Positions 12,490 to 42,500 of a stretch of 64,000 nt of DNA are shown in pieces. The notes below the pieces were generated by a model. The model saw only the letters and a program-made list of their open reading frames with translations. It searched no databases and was not told the DNA's origin. The stretch is from Bugula neritina (Eukaryota; Bryozoa; Gymnolaemata; Cheilostomatida; Bugulidae). The stretch spans positions 14,322,175-14,386,174 of the forward strand of contig OZ037768.1 of NCBI GenBank assembly GCA_964035545.1, read 5' to 3'. Both the position numbers and the translations under genes were made by a program. Positions within the stretch are counted from its first letter, which is position 1. Each line of letters begins with the position of its first letter.

Positions 12490-12754
12490 ATATATATATA
12501 GTTTCTATATTTAAAAAAAATGAATCAAAAGAACTCAATATTTCAAAAAATAGAGTATTTATATTTGGTACTGATACAATTTTGGATATAAAATAAACTT
12601 ATATATTCATTTTTCGACTACAATATTGTTTCACGTAGTGCAAGCTACGATCATCAGGTCGTTGCCGTAGCTTGCACTACGTGAAACAATATTGTAGTCG
12701 AAAAATGAATATATAAGTTTATTTTATATCCAAAATTGTATCAGTACCAAATAT
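12490..12754. mobile_element. Penelope-like terminal fragment arranged as an inverted repeat
   Basis: The left part (12490-12667) matches 30975-31140 closely by eye. About 90 bp of it (12558-12648) is repeated in inverse orientation at 12665-12754 around a short spacer containing ATCATCAGGTCGTTG. The minus strand of the left arm holds hammerhead-like core words: CTGATGA at 12657-12651 and GAAA at 12632-12629. It is flanked by short TA runs. No coding sequence is attached. Confidence 0.7.
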
Positions 12755-20053: not shown

Positions 20054-20990
<937 letters not shown>

Positions 20991-27014: not shown

Positions 27015-27255
27015 GCTCTTCACCTCTCTTCACTCCCCTACACCTCTCTACATTCCCCATACACCTCTCTATAATCCCCAACACCTCTCTATATTCCCTT
27101 ACACCTCTCTATGCTCCCCTACACCTCTCTATACTCCAATGCATCTCACTATACTCCCCTACATCTCTCTACACTCCCTTACACCTCTCTATACTCCCCT
27201 ACATCTCTCTATACTCCCATGCATCTCGCTATACTCCCCTTTACCTCTCTATACT
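27015..27255. repeat. 20-bp minisatellite, about 11-12 copies
   Basis: Unit approximately TCCCCTACACCTCTCTATAC with scattered changes. On the plus strand it reads as a periodic peptide (LPYTSLYS...), which explains the open frame there; there is no reason to think it is translated. Confidence 0.9.
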
Positions 27256-29520: not shown

Positions 29521-30290
29521 GTTTAGGAGTACCAATGCAACAGTTTTGATCTAGTTGTAAGCGTTTCTTTTTTAATAATTTATGAGCTATAGCAGTTACT
29601 TGAACTACTTCTACTAATACTAAAAGTAGTCCTTGCCCTTCACGTCGTCATTGTGCTCGGAGATCAGTAAAAATTGAGGTGTTTTAGGAACACGCTTTTC
29701 AGGCGTGTTTGTGTTTATACGAAAGTAGCAGCCTGTGAGAGTAAGTTTAGTCGCTTACAACTAGTTTCCATACGCCTTTGTGGATGACAAACTAAGAGAA
29801 TTTTTAGCCATCCCGAAATTAGATGTTTTCGATGATGGAGCAAAGGCTCGGCTGGTACAACACGCTTATTGAGCATGACAGGTACATTTTTTGACCTGAT
29901 GTTTTGCTCTTAGAGTTATCTCTCCTGACGGCATTGCTGTAATATTTCTCGAAAGTTTTTTGCTCTTTAGTTGGGAATGTCGATGAAAGAAAATTGAAGC
30001 TTAACATACGGTCACTCCAGGTTTAAATTGTAGGTAGAATTAATATATACAATTACAGATATAACTATAACTTTACACTATAATTGCCAGACCCATAAGT
30101 TACGTATCAAATTTGAATTGTAACAACTGATAATTGAGCATACATTATGTTTTAATTCAATGCAAGTAACATATCAATTAATACGCAGTGAATAAATAAA
30201 TTCTAAAACAATTTCATCTGCACACATAAATCAATGGTCTGAAAATCAAGATTTTTTTAGTTTTATATATTATAGAAGTTTAGTTTGGTT
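29521..30290. other. Gene-free stretch
   Basis: Intergenic sequence with somewhat higher GC at 29,620-29,980. No exon or repeat recognised; a 62-codon minus-strand frame here looks fortuitous. Confidence 0.35.
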
Positions 30291-30350
30291 ATATATATAG
30301 AAGTTTAGTTATGTATATAAGTATATAAGTATATATATACATATATATAT

Positions 30351-30405
30351 ATCTCATTCTGTGGACAGCAGCTGTTTCGGGATTTGTCCCCTCATCAGCA
30401 CAGAA
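30351..30405 (-). ncRNA. Hammerhead ribozyme, retrozyme copy 1
   Basis: Read on the minus strand: stem I 5' arm TTCTGTG (30405-30399), core CTGATGA (30398-30392), stem II GGGG/TCCC with loop ACAAA, core GAAA (30378-30375), stem III ACAG/CTGT closed by a 3-nt loop, cleavage triplet GTC, stem I 3' arm CACAGAA (7 bp). All conserved core positions are present and the 10.1-11.1 pair is G-C. Predicted cleavage is between 30364 and 30363. The short closed stem III and open stem I give a type I topology, usual for metazoan retrozymes. Confidence 0.88.
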
Positions 30406-30621
30406 CAGAGTACCATGGCCCACACCTTCGCAATAGTAAAACTTCTAGTTTTACTAAAGCATATTTAAAAGGTGTGTAAACTCAAACCAGAGTGCTCAAG
30501 TGACTCTAGGGGTCACCTAGGAGTCACGAGCATTGCAAAATGCTAGCAGCTTGAGTTTGTGACCATGGTGAGAGTGCTCAATCATTTAATGTCATTGCTG
30601 AGCATTAAATGAGAGCGTAAT

Positions 30622-30676
30622 ATCTCAATCTGTGGACAGCAGCTGTTTCGGGATTTGTCCCCTCATCAGCACAGAA
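30622..30676 (-). ncRNA. Hammerhead ribozyme, retrozyme copy 2
   Basis: Same core as copy 1 displaced by 271 bp: CTGATGA at 30669-30663, GAAA at 30649-30646, cleavage predicted between 30635 and 30634. One base differs at the outer end of stem I (CACAGAT), leaving 6 pairs. It sits at the internal junction of the dimer. Confidence 0.88.
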
Positions 30677-30888
30677 CAGAGTACCATGGCCCACACCTTC
30701 GCAATAGTAAAACTTCTAGTTTTACTAAAGCATATTTAAAAGGTGTGTAAACTCAAACCAGAGTGCTCAAGTGACTCTAGGGGTCACCTAGGAGTCACGA
30801 GCATTGCAAAATGCTAGCAGCTTGAGTTTGTGACCATGGTGAGAGTGCTCAATCATTTAATGTCATTGCTGAGCATTAAATGAGAGCG

Positions 30889-30890
<2 letters not shown>

Positions 30891-30974
<84 letters not shown>
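30891..30974. repeat. (TA)n microsatellite
   Basis: Separates the retrozyme dimer from the Penelope terminal fragment; one GTA interruption. Confidence 0.95.
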
Positions 30975-30979
<5 letters not shown>

Positions 30980-31140
30980 TTCTATAATCAAAAATGAATC
31001 AAAAGAACTCAATATTTCGAGAAATAGAGTATTTATATTTGGTACTAATACAATTTTGGATATAAAAATAAATTTAGATCTTCATTTATTGACTACAATA
31101 ATATTGTTTCACGTAGTGCGAGATACGATCATCAGGTCGT
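30975..31140 (-). mobile_element. Penelope-like terminal fragment with hammerhead-like motif
   Basis: Same family as 12490-12667. On the minus strand: CTGATGA (31135-31129), a stem II of about 5 bp, GAAA (31110-31107), an ACAAT.../...ATTGT stem III, and GTA before GTC (31093-31091). Stem I is only 3 bp and pair 10.1-11.1 is U-U, so activity is doubtful. It is joined head-on to a plus-strand endonuclease fragment at 31140, an inverted arrangement common in Penelope-like insertions. Confidence 0.6.
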
Positions 31141-31141
31141 T

Positions 31142-31504
31142 GTGTGTACTGTGGAAACTACCGAAAACGAGCCTGCAACATACATTGGCCTAAGTGAAGG
31201 ACCGTTCAAACTAAGATACGCAAACCACAGATCATCATTTAAAAACAAGGAGAAAGCAAATCAAACAGAACTTAGCAAACACATTTGGCAACTAACTAAC
31301 AAAAACATTAAGCACAACATAAGCTGGAAAATATTAAGAAAAGCGAAACCATACAACACAACTACTAAAAGGTGTAATTTATGCCTATGGGAATGTTTCT
31401 TTATTTTATACAAACCTAACATGTGTACTTTAAACAAGCAAAATGAACTCTTATCAACCTGCCGACACTCAAAAAAATTCTTACTGTGCAACCACAAAAC
31501 CTAG
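31142..31504 (+). pseudogene. GIY-YIG endonuclease end of a Penelope-like element (5'-truncated)
   Basis: A 120-codon frame holds ATYIGLSEGPFKLRYANHRS, TELSKHIWQL and RCNLCLWECFFILY...LNKQNELLSTCRH. This pattern is that of the C-terminal GIY-YIG endonuclease domain of Penelope-like retroelements (from memory), with the tyrosine of YIG and a downstream arginine present. The first ATG is not a real start; RT and N-terminal parts are absent. It differs in sequence from the endonuclease of the minus-strand element at 32.4-34.1 kb, so two families are present. A plus-strand hammerhead follows 250 bp downstream. Confidence 0.75.
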
Positions 31505-31756
31505 AAACTCTGTAGCCTATTTATATTTTAAGTACTATAGTAAATAATATACAAATACCCATAGAGAATAGTCACCCAACAAAAACTTCATGCATCTACT
31601 ATAAATTATGTTTTTACATTACATTAGGGTTTTTTTTATATATTAATTTACACCTACAAACCTATATAACAATACAGCCACTGTTATGTCTTCGTTACGT
31701 TTTACCTTGTGTTTAGCATTTTGATTTTCTTAATGTAAAAATTTAAATTCGTCAAT

Positions 31757-31805
31757 ATTGTGCCTGAGGAGTGCTAAAGAGGCATGAAACTATTAGTAGT
31801 ACAAT
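31757..31805 (+). ncRNA. Hammerhead ribozyme at the 3' end of a Penelope-like fragment
   Basis: Stem I 5' arm ATTGTGC (31757-31763), core CTGAGGA (position 7 of the core is not conserved, so this is allowed), stem II GTGC/GCAT with one G-U pair, core GAAA (31786-31789), stem III ACT/AGT closed by a small loop, triplet GTA with cleavage expected after 31798, stem I 3' arm GTACAAT (7 bp including one G-U). All required core bases are there. Penelope-like elements are known to carry hammerheads in their terminal repeats. Confidence 0.7.
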
Positions 31806-31841
31806 AAAACAACATCTATATAATTAAATTGCTCTTTTCCT

Positions 31842-32030
<189 letters not shown>

Positions 32031-34107
32031 CTTTACGAGCTATCAATTTGATTATAAATAGGTATACGAGAAACATTGTTGATTTATTACTTTATTAGGT
32101 AAAGTAATTACACTGATACTTCGGGTACCACTGTACCCATCTTCAGAAAAGCAATGAATGAAATTCAAAAATTATTATGTTACATTAGACGTTATGCATG
32201 ACACAAAGAATAGAGAGTGGCAGTTATTGTAAATTATTGAAACTTAGGGAGATAATCTTATTTTATATATTACGCAGGTCAAAAATTATACTGATTTTTT
32301 TTTTGCATAAAAAATAAATTAGAGTTGACAAAAAAAAAAATAGATATCTAAATATAAAAACAGCAAGAATTAGTGAAACTATGTGAGAGTTGAGTAGTGT
32401 GGAGCTATTGATATAGTTTTAGTGGTATGGAGTAATTTTGTTTATTGAGTTGCGGTTTTATTTGTTTAATGTAGAGAGCTTCGGCTACTTTTCGATGGTG
32501 GATTCCTTTAAATGAATGATTTAAAACTGTTACATTGTCTATTGATATGTTTCCATGATTAGTGGTGGAGATGTGTTGATAAATTTTGGAATTGATGTCA
32601 TGGCAGTGTTCATGTATCCTGTGTGATAGGCGATGTCCGGTTTCGCCTACATATGTTTGTTGACAGGTAGCTTCAGCGCAGGTTATTTTGTAGACTAGGT
32701 TGTGAATGTGTTCTTTATTGGTTTTATCTTTGAGATTAAAATGTGAACTTAAGGGGGTTCCTTTAAATAAAATCCGGGCATTGAGTTCATTTGAAAAAGA
32801 GTCTGTAATTAATTTATTGAGGGAGCGGATTAGTTTTTCTCCTGTTACTCCTTTATAAGGCAGCTGGAGTAAAATGTGTTTCCTGTTGTCTTTTTCACTG
32901 AATAGTCCGTCACCAATGTTGTTAATAGTTTTCTCTATTACATATTTAGGGTAACCATTTTTATGTTCAAAAACATTTCGAATATAGTTTAGTTCTTGGG
33001 TCTTAAGTGCTGGAGTAGAACAGATTTTATTAGCCCTTAATACTAGTGACTTGAGTGTGCTTAGCTTCCACGTTTTTAGTGAGAAAGAGTTCCAATGTAA
33101 ATATGTATCGTTATGTGTTGGTTTGCGGAATACTGTGGTTTCCACTGAGCTATTGTGTCGCAAAACTGTAACATCCAGAAAAGAAAGTGATTTATTGGTT
33201 TCTAGTTCGTGAGTAAATTTTATGTTAGGATGAAAATTATTAAGTGTGTTGAGTGTTGTGTTAATATAATCAGGGTCTATTGTTGCAAATGCGTCATCTA
33301 TGTATCTCACCCAAGGTGACATTGAATTCAATTTTGGTATTACTTTCTGTTTTAGTTTTGTCATGAATATATTCGCAATAATTGGTCCTAGAGGAGATCC
33401 CATAGCAACACCATCCGTCTGTGTATAAATGATGTCGTTGAAAGTAAAGTGAACTTGTTTTGTACAAAGGTTGAGTAAGTTTATCATTTTCTTCTTTGGT
33501 ATAGTTGTTTGGATTCGTTGTTTCTCATAAATATCATTTATGATTGCTGAAATCGTGTAGTCAAGTGGTACAGAAGTAAAGAGGGAAACAACATCAAATG
33601 ATATCAGTTGATGGTTTGCTGGAATATGAAGTTGCCGGATATAATATGTAAGAAAACTATCGGTTGATTCGATATTACTTTCAGATTCACTAAGTGGTTT
33701 TAGCATTTTGGCCAGGTATTTCGCAAGTTGGTATGATGCAGTGCCTATGTTAGAAATTATTGGTCGCATTTGTAGCTTCTCTAGACCATCTCCTTGTTTG
33801 AGTTTGTGTATTTTGGCCATCCCGTAAAATTTTCCAGGTGCTGAACCTGTTGGATATATCCTTTTGTAGTCAGTGTCAGAAAAATGCTTTTTTGATACTA
33901 CGTAATTCTAATTGTATTCGATTTTCAATAGTTTTTGTTAGATCTGTGGAACATGTTGAAAATTTTGGTGTATTTAGTATTTCTAAACATTTGTTGATGT
34001 AATCCTTCTTATTCATGACAACAGTACCTTTTCCTTTGTCTTGTTTAATTAATGCGATATCCTTATTATTTTTCAATTTCTTTAGAGCATCATCAAAATA
34101 TTTTGGC

Positions 34108-34110
<3 letters not shown>
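32031..34110 (-). mobile_element. Penelope-like retroelement, 5'-truncated
   Basis: Contains the RT/endonuclease coding region (separate entry), an A-rich 3' UTR (about 32,160-32,400) and a terminal segment near 32,060-32,150. That segment reads CTGAAGA, a 6-bp GGGTAC/GTACCC hairpin, then GAAG on the minus strand. Both flanks are (TA)n arrays (31847-32030 and 34108-34280). The N-terminal coding part is missing beyond the right TA array. Confidence 0.8.
32405..34110 (-). pseudogene. Penelope-like RT plus GIY-YIG endonuclease, one frameshift
   Basis: The long open part (33820-32405, 471 codons, extendable upstream to about 33,880) has RT motifs in order: LISFDVVSLFTSVP (A), DGVAMGSPLGPIIANIF (B), RYIDDAFATI with the YIDD catalytic box (C) and KSLSFLDVTVLR. 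A GIY-YIG endonuclease follows at the C-terminus (HNLVYKITC, TYVGETG, HRIHEH). Upstream, 34110-33876 encodes [20 protein letters not shown], the conserved pre-RT block, but in another frame. The two frames meet at a run of six A near 33,885-33,895, consistent with a single-base length change. Everything else is open, so the copy is young. RT residues look intact; the element is inactive as it stands because of the shift and truncation. Confidence 0.85.
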
Positions 34111-34283
<173 letters not shown>

Positions 34284-34310
34284 GAGATGCAGTCTGCAAT
34301 GCAATGCAAT

Positions 34311-36591
34311 GCTGCAATGATAATTTTTATTATATTAAACATAACCATTAGAGTGTTTCTTAAGACACCATGAACCATGGATCTGATTTTGAGGACTATG
34401 TTAAAAAGTGTAGACTAAATTTATGCAAATTATTTCAGTTTAAAACTTTAAAATATTTGTTACATTATGTGTCTTTATATTTTTTTTTGTTTTTATGCTA
34501 AGTTTTATAATTTATATGCTTCATAAGTAGAAGCAGCTTTTCACTGATTGCATATATATTATATGCTCACTCGTGGTGCGTGCGGTGCGTGTGTGCAAGT
34601 GTGTGTGTGCTTTCAGGGACTTGCTGAGTTATAGTATGCAACATGAGTTCCATAATATTGATTTGTCAGTAGTATGACTGCTGGGGCACTGAAATCATGT
34701 CAAACAAGTTAAACTACAAAATTAACCAGTTTTTTAAATATTTCGCTCTAGTGCTTGTAATAGCCCTTGAGTAGAATTCTCTCATTGTGTAATTTACTAT
34801 GTGTTCAAACTGCGGAGAAAGTTAGTTCTGTTTGAACGAAGCCACAACCAGTGAATGGACTTAGTTCAATGGAGACATGTAATAAAATAGGCTTAGAACT
34901 TGTATCATATAACTGAGGTCTTTATTGTCTAAAATCCACATATAATAGTAAATCTTGCATAATAGATATTTTATAGTATCAGCCTAAATAATTTATTTGC
35001 TGATACCCTGAACTTTTTATGCTTATATTTTACACCAAAATATGTTTGATTTACTAAGCTAGTTATTTCAGCCTGCTATGCAGTTATGTCGTAATGTATT
35101 GGGAGCCAAAAAGTTGAGAAAAGCTATAAACTAACATCAGCTCGGAAGACAGTTATATTTTTAATTTGACCAACACCTGCTACTAAAGAGACAAGTATAC
35201 CTAAATAAAATATGTTATTCAAAAGTGCATATAACTGGTTCTTGAACACACATAAGTTATATAAACATGCATCATAAATATACATTGTCCAGCTCATGCA
35301 ACTATTGATGCATTCTTATACAATGATGTCACATCAACAAGAAACTTGTTGCAAAATAATAGACATGAGTTAGTGGTGCTAGTTTGCAGCAACTGTAAGT
35401 TGCTGGTGGCCAAGATGCAAGTTTTATAGTTTTACAAACCAGCATTTTATTGCTTTAATAGGTAACATATCCTGACAGTGCTAAGACTAGAGGGTGTAGG
35501 ACTTCATCAACAATAATGATTATACCTTATGGCTTACACAAATATCAGAAGAAAACTTTGCAATTGTTTTTAAATTATGAGTTAGTCTATCTAACAAATA
35601 ATTAATGATGAGTAATTTTTACATTATGTAATTATATTTTTCGGTAAAGAAGCTGTAGATTTTTTTTGTGCATATATGAGAAGTTGCTATAAACAGTACA
35701 AATAAAAGTTCGTCTATATACAAGGTAAAATATCGTTGTAATAAGAAAACCTTATTTTCTAAAGAATTTGCAGCAGTAACTTGCAAATAAAAAAATACAT
35801 CAAAAATCTAAAAAACATCACCAATTATTTATTGCAACATTGGAGCTGATAAAAAGTCAAGTTATTAATCGTTAAAGAGATCACAAACATAATAATTGTC
35901 ATATGCTTACATGTTCCAATGTTTTATAGAAAACAAAAGAGTTATTTTAGAGGATAGTACAGTCCATAGTTTATACATTGTGGTCTAATACAGTTGAAAT
36001 ATGTGTTTACAGTGTAATATACTGCACATTTATAAAGCTTTAATCAATAGCATTTATGAAATATTTGCAAGAAAGTACAGAACAAATTGCAGTAGATTGA
36101 CACCAATATTTTAGTGATAGAATATTATTCCCAGCTCAACACGATACAGCTATAATGGCAAATCAATTTACTTTTATTGTTAGCTAAACAAAGCATGAAT
36201 GTGTTCTTAAATTAAAACAAAAATACATGTTTTGACAATAGTAGCATTGCTATGATGCATAATAGGCTGAGTTGTTTTCCTCGTTGAAATTCAGTCAAGT
36301 TTGAGAAAAGGAATGATAACTCCACAAGCCAATGTTAAACTTTGTAATCACTGATCTTGACATAAACAATTATTATTAAGAGGCTAAAAGCTGTTAGTAC
36401 ACATAATTTTGATGGAGGAGATTATTAATTATAAAACCAAAGGAACAAAATTAGTAAACCAAGTAAAGTTCTGCTTGCAAACAAGATTGCAACAATAATA
36501 TATATTTTTTAAATGTACACAAAGTCTGTATCAAGCAACATAGATTGCTAATGTTTTTTGCTATACTGATACAAATTCAATAAACAAAAAG
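34311..36591. other. Gene-free stretch downstream of Alx
   Basis: AT-rich, with a short GT-rich run near 34,575-34,610. No exon, repeat family or RNA gene recognised. May include the Alx 3' UTR at its right end (AATAAA-type words on the minus strand are frequent and not diagnostic). Confidence 0.4.
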
Positions 36592-39500: not shown

Positions 39501-42500
39501 TGTTTGAAACGTTTTAATTTGCCGGCAGTTTCAGTTTATATATTTTCAATGTGTAACTTGAATATATTTTGGCTTGTCTCTAATTCTATATGCTTGGAAG
39601 GTTTGTTTTGTTTTGGCTTACAAATAATTAATGTATATTTTAGGGAGATTATTGCATGAATATTTTGATTTCTTTATAAAAAGTAATGGAAATTGTACAA
39701 ACTAGAACCAATTTTGTATCAATAGATTCTTTGAAGTAGAATTTTTAGCTTAACTTTTCAACTGTGACAGAAAGTAATAAGCCTGTATCAGTAACTCCAT
39801 CAACATTCTTTTACATACATATCATATTGGCAGGAATTTTAATTTCCATATGAACTAAAAAACTTTAGGCTAAAAATCATGCATATTTTTTATAAAATAA
39901 AATAATTAGGTGAAAGTTGACTATACTAAAATATTATTGTGAAATCCAAATAAAACTGCATGTGCAAGTAATTATATAGCAAAGTTCCTCAGACTTTTAA
40001 AATTTGTTTTTAGTAGCTAGGTTAAAGTTGTTAAAAACAAAAAAATTGCTCAACAATTATTCAATGAATTTTCATGGAACAAGGTTTAATAAATTTCATT
40101 TTCTGAAGTTTGTGCTAATTATAGATACACTGTTTGCCAGGCTTGCTCTTGTTTATAAAGCTATAGTTATATAGAAACTTACAGTATAGGAGATTTGCAG
40201 TAGTAATAGTAATCTAATTGTCTTTGATTAATTTATTTAATTAGAGTTAGGTAAGTCAAGATGTTAATAATTGCTATGGTCAATATACTGAAATGTGATG
40301 ATTATACAAATTAGTGATAATGAATTTTTATCAAGTTTGATTGATAACCATAACGCAATTAGAGTTGGGGAAGCCCTTCCTAAAGAATACACACTAGGAA
40401 GCTTTTCGCTATGACTATAACTTAAGTAGCTTTTGAATCGTATCTAAAGTTGATGCACTTTGAAGCAAGTAGATGGCATTAACTGACACACAATACTACT
40501 GACTTGAATGTTTTCTATCTGATAAAAATGCTGCCGTCCTATCTCAGATTCCTCCTATTTCGATTGTATCAAGTCAAGTTTCATTTACAGGCAGTGATTT
40601 TGAGCACTTACAACAGCTGCTAGCTTTTATTTGAGTATGAGGAGCCAATACTTAGCATGAAACCATTTCAGACAGAGCTCAAGCTTTTGACTCCAATTAA
40701 ACCACAAAAGCATCAACAAGCCATCAACAGCAGCCCACGACCTACTATCAATTTACACAATTTCCTCTGAATTGCAAACCAGTCCAGATATTTTTGTTCA
40801 ATGTAATAAAAAATACAGAGCTGGGAAGGATACACTTAATTTTCTTACTATCAAGCATATATTGCAAAGATTTCTTAGCCAAATATATTAAATAAGTAGA
40901 AATGTAGGAAAAGCTTGTATTGATAAAAATATTGTTAATGGGAAGAACAGCTGATATGAAATTAATGTATTTGTAACCAGGAAATTTAATTGCATCTCAC
41001 ACTCATGGTTTAACATTGATTAGCTCTTCATTATTGCAATTGACCTTTAATTAAGCTGTTTTACAAGCAGTAATTTACACTACCTATAATACACAGGCCT
41101 CAGTGACTACCCACAAACCTTTATGTTCAAACTTTAGGTAATCTATGAAAATAGCTGCATGATGTGACCTAAGGGATGTGTGGCAAAAATACGGTATGTA
41201 TTGTGAACATTTTATTCTTCTGCACATAATCTTTGCATAAAGCTATCAACTAATATACATGTCTAACTCACTGTAATTATTAATGAATTTTTGGTCGTAT
41301 TCCCATAATAACCATTTTAATTGATATATGCAACTATCCAGTTATAACATTATTATTAAATTAATAATAATAAGGCTGTTAATCTCATAACCATCACATC
41401 TGGATAGATAGATAACTGGCTAATCTTACAGCTATAATATTATTACACTTTTACTGACTATAATTATAATCAAAATGAAAATGACACTTCTAAATAAGCT
41501 GTTATGTAAGAGATGGGAAGCCTCTACTGCCAGTAGTTCAAGTATAGATTGCAGTTTGTTAGACAAACTTTATATTAAGGTATCCTCTCAATTATTGTAA
41601 GCTACAAGTTAGCAATAGGTAGATTCATCAACAATTGCAATATTAAACACAAATTATATACATAAAATATTGACTTCTCATGAAAAATCAAATTCGTTGG
41701 AGAATAAATAAATTTATTTGCAAATTATTCCTTTAACCCAAACGCCTAACCTAAATTTTTGTACTTCGAATAACTAGGTAATATTCATGTAATATATTAT
41801 AAGTTTATATATAAACAGTACTCTACCTGCACTCTCGCCTCAGTGAGATCACACCTCATTGCTAGCTGTTCTCTGGCATAGACATCTGGATAGTGAGTCT
41901 TCTGGAATATCCTTTCCATCTCCTCTAATTGGTAACTGGTAAATGTTGTTCTATTTCTTCGTTTCTTTCTTTTGCTTGAATCTCCTGCATTGCTGTCTTC
42001 ACTACCATGACCCTCACCCCCACTTAGATTTCCTGTGGGTGTTTCAGGTGGTGTTTGCATGCTATTTGTGGTATCATTCTCAATGGCAGATTTTGCGCTG
42101 GGATAATATGGTTCAGGTGATCCTATAAAAGGAATGAAGAGGGCTTGAGTTATTAAGAATATTTATAAATTAATATACTCCTAGTACTAGTAAAATATGT
42201 ATATTGATGATATAGTATAATGATATATCAGTCATTATGAATCCAATATATAAAAAGCTTTTGTGTTTAATAATACTAAAAGTTGAACATGTTTTTTATA
42301 TATTTTATATTATAATAATAAACAGCTGTTTAAATTCTGTTATTTTGTGCTTTTTTACAGTTTGTCTCAACAGGTGGCTTTTAATGATCAAGGAAAATGT
42401 TCATGTCTCAGAAATGATGTCATGCATCTGCAGTTTGACATGATTTTCCCCTAAGGTTAAATCTGCGTGTGCTTTACTGCTGTGCATATCAACTTAAGGC

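Follow-up and report, generated by a model that had tools for sequence, protein, structure and literature searches.

Insertion junctions of a hammerhead retrozyme family at (AT)n microsatellites in the bryozoan Bugula neritina

How does a short ribozyme-bearing repeat come to stand in a genome as a tandem dimer, and where does its copying begin? The question is raised by a 64,000-nucleotide stretch of the Bugula neritina genome (hereafter the window, C4:14322175-14386174), for which an earlier note had proposed a tandem-dimer retrozyme with canonical hammerhead ribozymes on the minus strand. We analysed this locus and searched the host assembly (215.8 Mb, 295 contigs) for further copies. Beyond the single locus of that note we found an (AT)n target, a fixed 3' junction, many 5'-truncated copies, and neighbouring elements with the same 3' layout.

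A dimeric unit with type I hammerhead motifs

Tandem Repeats Finder, run on the window, places a single array at 30349-30894 with a period of 271, 2.0 copies and a 99% match. The near-identity of two 271-bp units reported in the earlier note holds on direct comparison, with 0 differences over the 256 compared positions (unit positions 16-271), the sole mismatch between the copies' terminal 15 nt being at unit position 7. Aligned to the unit, the minus-strand insertion (30349..30894, 2.01 units) comprises unit positions 12-271 (30894-30635), 1-271 (30634-30364) and 1-15 (30363-30349). An AT-rich flank, readable in the sequence as an interrupted TA repeat, adjoins its 3' side (30315..30348), and an (AT)n array detected by Tandem Repeats Finder lies on its 5' side (30891..30974). 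In the genome the ~270-bp unit occurs both singly and in tandem.

Each unit carries a minus-strand hammerhead motif found by the descriptor scan, at 30629..30675 in the first unit (which also has sub-threshold Rfam matches) and at 30358..30404 in the second. Both have the full conserved core that had been claimed for them: CUGAUGA ... GAA, A15.1-U16.1 and C17 are all present. Stem I has 6 bp (8 in one copy according to the descriptor scan), stem II has 4 bp (three G-C and one G-U) with the loop ACAAA, and stem III pairs ACAG with CUGU around a 3-nt loop. The open helix is stem I, which makes the motifs type I and not the type III of plant LTR retrozymes. With such a core, both motifs would be expected to cleave, at predicted cuts 30635/30634 and 30364/30363, and to release 271 nt, in agreement with the sites and product predicted earlier. 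By eye only, a possible internal loop can be seen beside stem I; mussel retrozymes are described as lacking most conserved loop contacts in the accessible text of PMC7229834. A search for a Pol III B box gave no match within 2 mismatches.

The descriptor, which requires CTGANGA, GAA, a stem II of at least 4 bp, a stem III of at least 3 and a stem I of at least 4, matches the window 3 times (2 in the dimer, 1 at 31764 on the plus strand), compared with 0 matches in 60 dinucleotide-shuffled windows. Over 328 kb of nuclear loci, selected for containing these repeats, it gives 72 matches against 0 in 5 shuffles; 63 of these are labelled retrozyme, and one of the 9 others (L009, 706) is a diverged retrozyme. 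The covariance-model check that the note had recommended came out divided: hammerhead families rank first on the motif, but all score well under the Rfam cut-offs. On the 61-nt stretch that contains the motif, RAGATH-1-hammerhead leads with 19.1 bits (E 0.14), where the cut-off is 56.3; Hammerhead_3 comes next with 12.8 bits (E 1.6) against a cut-off of 48.5. No Rfam family reached its gathering score in the 64-kb window, and a search of 801 bases at E<=5 returned no hammerhead family, its matches being mostly AT-repeat. Over the genome, Hammerhead_1 gives one sub-cut-off match (25.4 bits, cut-off 34, E 0.06), which overlaps a copy of the hammerhead motif of element D (see below) and alone means little, since this search gives sub-cut-off matches in 11 of 14 control genomes too.

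The high self-complementarity attributed to the unit is confirmed by folding: its minimum free energy is -103.1 kcal/mol as a linear molecule (z -8.0; 0/200 shuffles equal it) and -97.2 kcal/mol as a circle (z -7.1; 0/100). For the motif region taken alone (56 nt), stability does not exceed that of shuffles (z -0.89). An alternative pairing is preferred to the hammerhead, both in the motif alone (-12.2 kcal/mol folded freely, -9.3 with the hammerhead forced) and, similarly by ~3-4 kcal/mol, in the circle, where forcing the hammerhead gives -93.5 kcal/mol. Hammerhead-like cores (CCTGATGATCG...TACGTGAAAC) of another repeat lie on the minus strand at 31079-31145 and at 12657; the descriptor finds neither, and the first, matched at 31135, was rejected for its weak fold (z 0.23 against shuffles).

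A dispersed family with a fixed 3' end

Searching the genome with the unit gave 71 matches in 40 loci (40 of 660 candidates scored). Pattern searches allowing up to 3 mismatches found 527 matches to a 35-mer of the core, 457 in which the cut site and tail are followed by (AT)n, and 121 in which they are followed by the next unit (the junction), while each reversed pattern gave 0; mismatch tolerance differs by place, so that the three counts are not strictly additive, and diverged subfamilies may be missed. The further copies that the earlier note had suggested looking for are present as a family of hundreds of dispersed copies, and by these counts most insertions lack an internal junction and tandem arrays are a minority.

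These properties place the element among known retrozymes. Animal non-LTR retrozymes (Cervera and de la Peña 2020) are portrayed, in the accessible text of PMC7229834, as dispersed, self-paired units of ~170-400 nt with a type I hammerhead and low GC, occurring as monomers to multimers in hosts that also have hammerhead-bearing Penelope-like elements. In Bugula we likewise find a type I hammerhead per unit, a unit of matching size and low GC, tandem arrays of up to 4.02 units, strong self-pairing, multicopy dispersal and resident Penelope-like elements with a hammerhead or hammerhead-like motif. We regard the window element as almost certainly a retrozyme, and the original reading is upheld: a dispersed, strongly self-paired unit that bears a type I hammerhead and occurs both alone and in arrays is the object to which these authors give that name. 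Differences are that Bryozoa are not named as hosts in that accessible text, and that it holds no description, for the published animal retrozymes, of the strict (AT)n setting and single fixed 3' junction seen in Bugula, where most copies, unlike the elements as portrayed there, are 5'-truncated monomers. Plant LTR retrozymes, as the same source presents them, are also hammerhead-processed and non-autonomous with circular RNA, as we would predict for the Bugula unit; they differ in having type III hammerheads within LTRs, circles of ~600-800 nt, a primer-binding site and a presumed Gypsy helper.

To locate the ends of insertions, all 40 unit-search loci (the window and 39 others, a list that favours complete units) were aligned to repeated units. 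In 37 of the 40 the insertion has its 3' end at position 15 of the unit, shortly beyond the predicted cut, the exceptions being L032 (position 4), L046 (position 7) and L047 (position 12). The 24 bases that follow alternate between A and T in 38/40 loci (not in L032 and L040). In the window, such a run follows 1.1% of all positions, and 0.56% of them once 30200-34400 is set aside. In the window, the AUAU of unit positions 12-15 (30349..30352, minus strand), which we take as the likely start of reverse transcription, is continuous with the flanking AT repeat. The 5' flank alternates in 29/40 loci and 5' starts vary, with 25 different ones among the 40 loci, 7 of which start at position 12. Insertions are 1.01-4.02 units long, in 25/40 the excess over one unit is above 20 nt, and odd lengths of 1.28, 1.37, 1.48 and 1.79 units keep the same 3' end.

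We added 16 loci, the first on contig C1 outside this list. They were chosen through their 3' end alone, by a pattern extending into the (AT)n, and are informative on 5' ends, not on target. Their starts range from 12 to 243 (3/16 at 12), and 13/16 are shorter than a full turn (44-257 nt). A start at unit position 1 or 2 occurs in 0 of the 56 loci (one, L025, was placed at 271 in one alignment but not in a recount), and all insertions seen cross the cut site or end at it.

A fixed 3' end combined with variable 5' ends is the mark of target-primed reverse transcription, and very probably synthesis starts in this manner, within (AT)n. The junctions give start point, target and copying direction. 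They also constrain the template: because insertions cross the cut site, the bond there must have been intact or resealed; because many exceed one unit, a circular or multimeric template is needed; and because starts do not pile up at position 1, cleaved linear RNA is unlikely to be the usual template. The starts of several loci at positions 4-12, near one full turn, may reflect a second encounter of the new strand with AT sequence.

Units within an array resemble one another as descendants of a single monomer would. Across 40 unit pairs from 22 arrays (pairs of one array are not independent), 55/7232 cells differ within arrays (0.76%) compared with 1.46% between loci, and 0/1000 permutations were as low. 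Over the pairs, both units carry the same non-majority variant 23 times, where 1000 permutations gave 0.11 on average and never more than 3; the two units of the window share such variants at positions 149 and 190. The 55 cells with a variant in one unit only indicate that the copies are not all fresh. Several rounds of copying one circle would give shared variants directly; some of them may also stem from gene conversion.

Resident Penelope-like elements with a similar 3' layout

Beyond the dimer, at higher coordinates, the window contains two elements whose 3' ends face each other across an (AT)n array (31847..32030, Tandem Repeats Finder): element D on the plus strand and element A on the minus strand. 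Element D is represented by a fragment with a GIY-YIG-like open frame (31049..31504, plus), whose relatives, 51-55% identical, are named GIY-YIG by their source; the frame has no Pfam match, and the fragment probably belongs to a Penelope-like element. At 31756..31806 (plus) the descriptor finds a complete type I hammerhead, whose stems I/II/III have 8/5/3 bp and whose predicted cut follows the A at 31798. From there a 48-nt tail, recognised from its sequence and genome copies, extends to the (AT)n (31799..31846, plus). The end of the motif with the tail has 111 genome copies and the tail running into (AT)n has 92, both with 0 for the reversed pattern.

Element A, by its sequence, is a Penelope-like element. 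The window copy is 5'-truncated (32013..34109, minus; assigned from RVT_1, its genome family and its relatives) and lies between two (AT)n arrays, the second at 34108..34281 on its 5' side (Tandem Repeats Finder). Its reverse transcriptase frame (32405-33907, minus) matches Pfam RVT_1 at E 1.6e-10. One database protein, 809 aa long, shares 96% identity with it across 99% of the query; other relatives are 37-50% identical, and RVT_1 is present in nearly all of the 120 listed. PF01541 appears in 1 of these 120 (P0135, 45% identical, 99% query cover); in element A itself GIY-YIG has no Pfam match at E<=10, a candidate motif being read by eye, and in the PDB the best match to its reverse transcriptase stands at E 0.067. 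In the 3' UTR there is an incomplete hammerhead-like core (32120..32146, minus; CTGAAGA ... GAA), found from the sequence and missed by the descriptor, with an extra base at 10.1 and, by eye, no good stem I.

Element A matched the genome 89 times, with 86 scored among 288 candidates. Fifty-two matches in the 30 top-ranking loci extend to the 3' end, and one of these runs off its locus. What follows the other 51 is (AT)n in 38 cases, a tandem join to the element's own 5' part in 6, forming the pseudo-LTR arrangement of Penelope-like elements, and other sequence in 7, 5 of which open with a short or imperfect AT repeat. The 5' truncation is variable and the 3' ends are fixed; element A uses two of them, ~40 nt apart, which recall the optional tail of an Anolis element (PMC11167929).

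Three further repeats extend this picture. Two hammerhead-like repeats with the same order of motif, tail and (AT)n occur at few loci (L039 and L044; L064 and L069). A third hammerhead family, CTGACGAGTGCAG..., occurs at L033 and L074 (C7:9233800-9236200 and around C3:11419889), lies 137-141 nt from the nearest (AT)n, and has a paired change in stem II, C-G in one and T-A in the other. We saw no coding region in any of the three, and that they are Penelope-like is a guess. Hammerheads in Penelope-like elements were reportedly described by Cervera in 2014 and Lunse in 2017. In Bugula, the 3' layout of the resident Penelope-like elements resembles that of the retrozyme: a hammerhead or hammerhead-like motif, a short tail and (AT)n. 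The retrozyme unit itself shows only chance-level matches to the sequence of element A (best E 0.19).

Proposed copying of the retrozyme into (AT)n

We consider it likely that circular retrozyme RNA is copied by a Penelope-like enzyme at (AT)n, the best explanation of these observations as a whole, and suggest that a type of retrotransposon already living in this genome writes circles of the element's RNA back into its DNA. Hammerheads would first cut multimeric minus-strand transcripts into 271-nt RNAs, which a host ligase would close into circles. A Penelope-like reverse transcriptase/endonuclease would then open an (AT)n microsatellite, whose (TA)n end would pair with the AUAU at unit positions 12-15, so that cDNA starts where the junctions place it. 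Synthesis would pass the restored cut site and mostly stop before one turn, leaving 5'-truncated monomers, and sometimes continue for one to four turns, leaving tandem arrays; lengths and ends here are those observed, and the order of events is our conjecture. The new strand would finally join the other side of the AT repeat. On this scheme the window dimer is probably the 2.01-turn product of a single insertion of an animal non-LTR retrozyme.

A Penelope-like enzyme is the rather likely helper, since the resident elements end alike in hammerhead or hammerhead-like motif, short tail and (AT)n, and the resident enzyme is the best candidate. That circles are copied from a primer, and that Penelope-like elements are strong candidates for the helper, was put forward earlier by the authors who described animal retrozymes (PMC7229834), and a 2020 review states that animal retrozymes have no conserved motif pointing to a helper retrotransposon (PMC7761336). 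In Anolis, the Penelope-like enzyme begins synthesis at an internal site and cleaves DNA that is AT-rich; according to the accessible text of PMC11167929, that element has in common with ours a start near the hammerhead, an AT-rich target, 5' truncation and alternative 3' ends (the 'tail'), and differs in that the retrozyme shows no protein and has a start site that matches the target repeat. Terminons are a possible precedent, by analogy, for priming next to a ribozyme: in the accessible text of PMC12477314, they carry target-complementary repeats beside a hammerhead at the template 3' end, which pair with target DNA, although, unlike the retrozyme, they are giant coding elements at telomeric G-rich repeats.

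Several observations count against this scheme. The hammerhead fold competes with another pairing and the Rfam matches are below significance; the hammerhead is incomplete in element A, the one element in which we saw a reverse transcriptase; the retrozyme unit has no sequence similarity to element A; and the internal start of the Anolis enzyme is not homologous to the cut DNA and was made on uncut RNA in vitro (PMC11167929, accessible text).

That last result lends some weight to the alternative that an existing array is transcribed into a multimer which, without being cut, serves as the template. Priming would then occur at an AUAU inside it or on its AU-rich 3' flank, and the hammerhead would be idle in insertion. 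Since the Anolis enzyme starts without homology and on unprocessed RNA, and since the junctions do not separate an uncut bond from a resealed one, we keep this reading as unlikely but credible. Against it, arrays carry their own variants, which the transcript of an older array would explain only if that array were uniform, and long templates would be scarce when most copies lack an internal junction (457 ends against 121 junctions). We accordingly favour a circular template as probable.

Satellite-like arrays often grow by unequal crossing-over or slippage, with gene conversion evening out their units. If only monomers were inserted and arrays grew later in this way, the sharing of variants would follow too; crossing-over, however, requires more than one unit at the outset, and the 25/40 loci more than 20 nt over one unit have odd lengths with the same 3' end, which makes this quite improbable. 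A free viroid-like or satellite circular RNA that entered the genome by accident would account for a compact, strongly paired, ribozyme-bearing unit, but a hammerhead was found on one strand only, the core has no exact match in the viral contigs searched (which may omit records near the genome of the window), and hundreds of genomic copies share one DNA-side junction, so we give it very little credence. A chance motif in an ordinary minisatellite fits the sub-cut-off Rfam scores and is next to impossible given the shuffled windows and the 527 genome cores against 0 reversed, even though copies of one repeat are not independent.

Preferring the copying of circles by a Penelope-like enzyme, we tentatively raise a broader idea, that animal retrozymes may stand to Penelope-like elements as SINEs do to LINEs. 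The hammerhead would make the circle and, by its cut, set the short tail; nicked (TA)n would prime at the AUAU of the tail; the enzyme would copy from a fraction of a turn to several turns; and hammerhead plus tail would be a priming and recognition module common to both classes. If true, this would explain the persistence of hammerheads in Penelope-like elements. The resident Penelope-like elements share both target and 3' layout with the retrozyme, and the helper question becomes testable at the bench, since template and target are defined and the ends of the product can be predicted.

New here are a bryozoan member of the animal non-LTR retrozymes and junction evidence on where and how copying starts. 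In the literature we found no paper joining bryozoa and hammerhead ribozymes, and, among publications on retrozymes, Penelope-like elements and microsatellite targets, no title or abstract describing such junctions (subscription journals being mostly outside this scope); none of the words Penelope, hammerhead and retrozyme occurs in an article on the genome of another bryozoan (PMC13326412).

Some further features of the assembly and window were recorded in passing. The host mitochondrial COX1 lies on contig C295 (invertebrate code) and matches that of Bugula neritina at 100% identity along the entire query, the other bryozoans recognised by name among the 120 matches listed standing at 78-87%. 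Further COX1 genes occur on C17, C65 and C196, which may be symbiont or contaminant contigs, the C17 copy having no internal TGA. A second full-length COX1-like stretch with 9 TGA (C6:11174072-11175412) is perhaps a nuclear copy of mitochondrial DNA. The window also contains an exon-like frame with a homeodomain (41797-42162, minus; Pfam E 7.6e-16) and, from Tandem Repeats Finder, a perfect (GA)59 run (20056-20173) and a 20-bp minisatellite of 11.7 copies (27021-27255).
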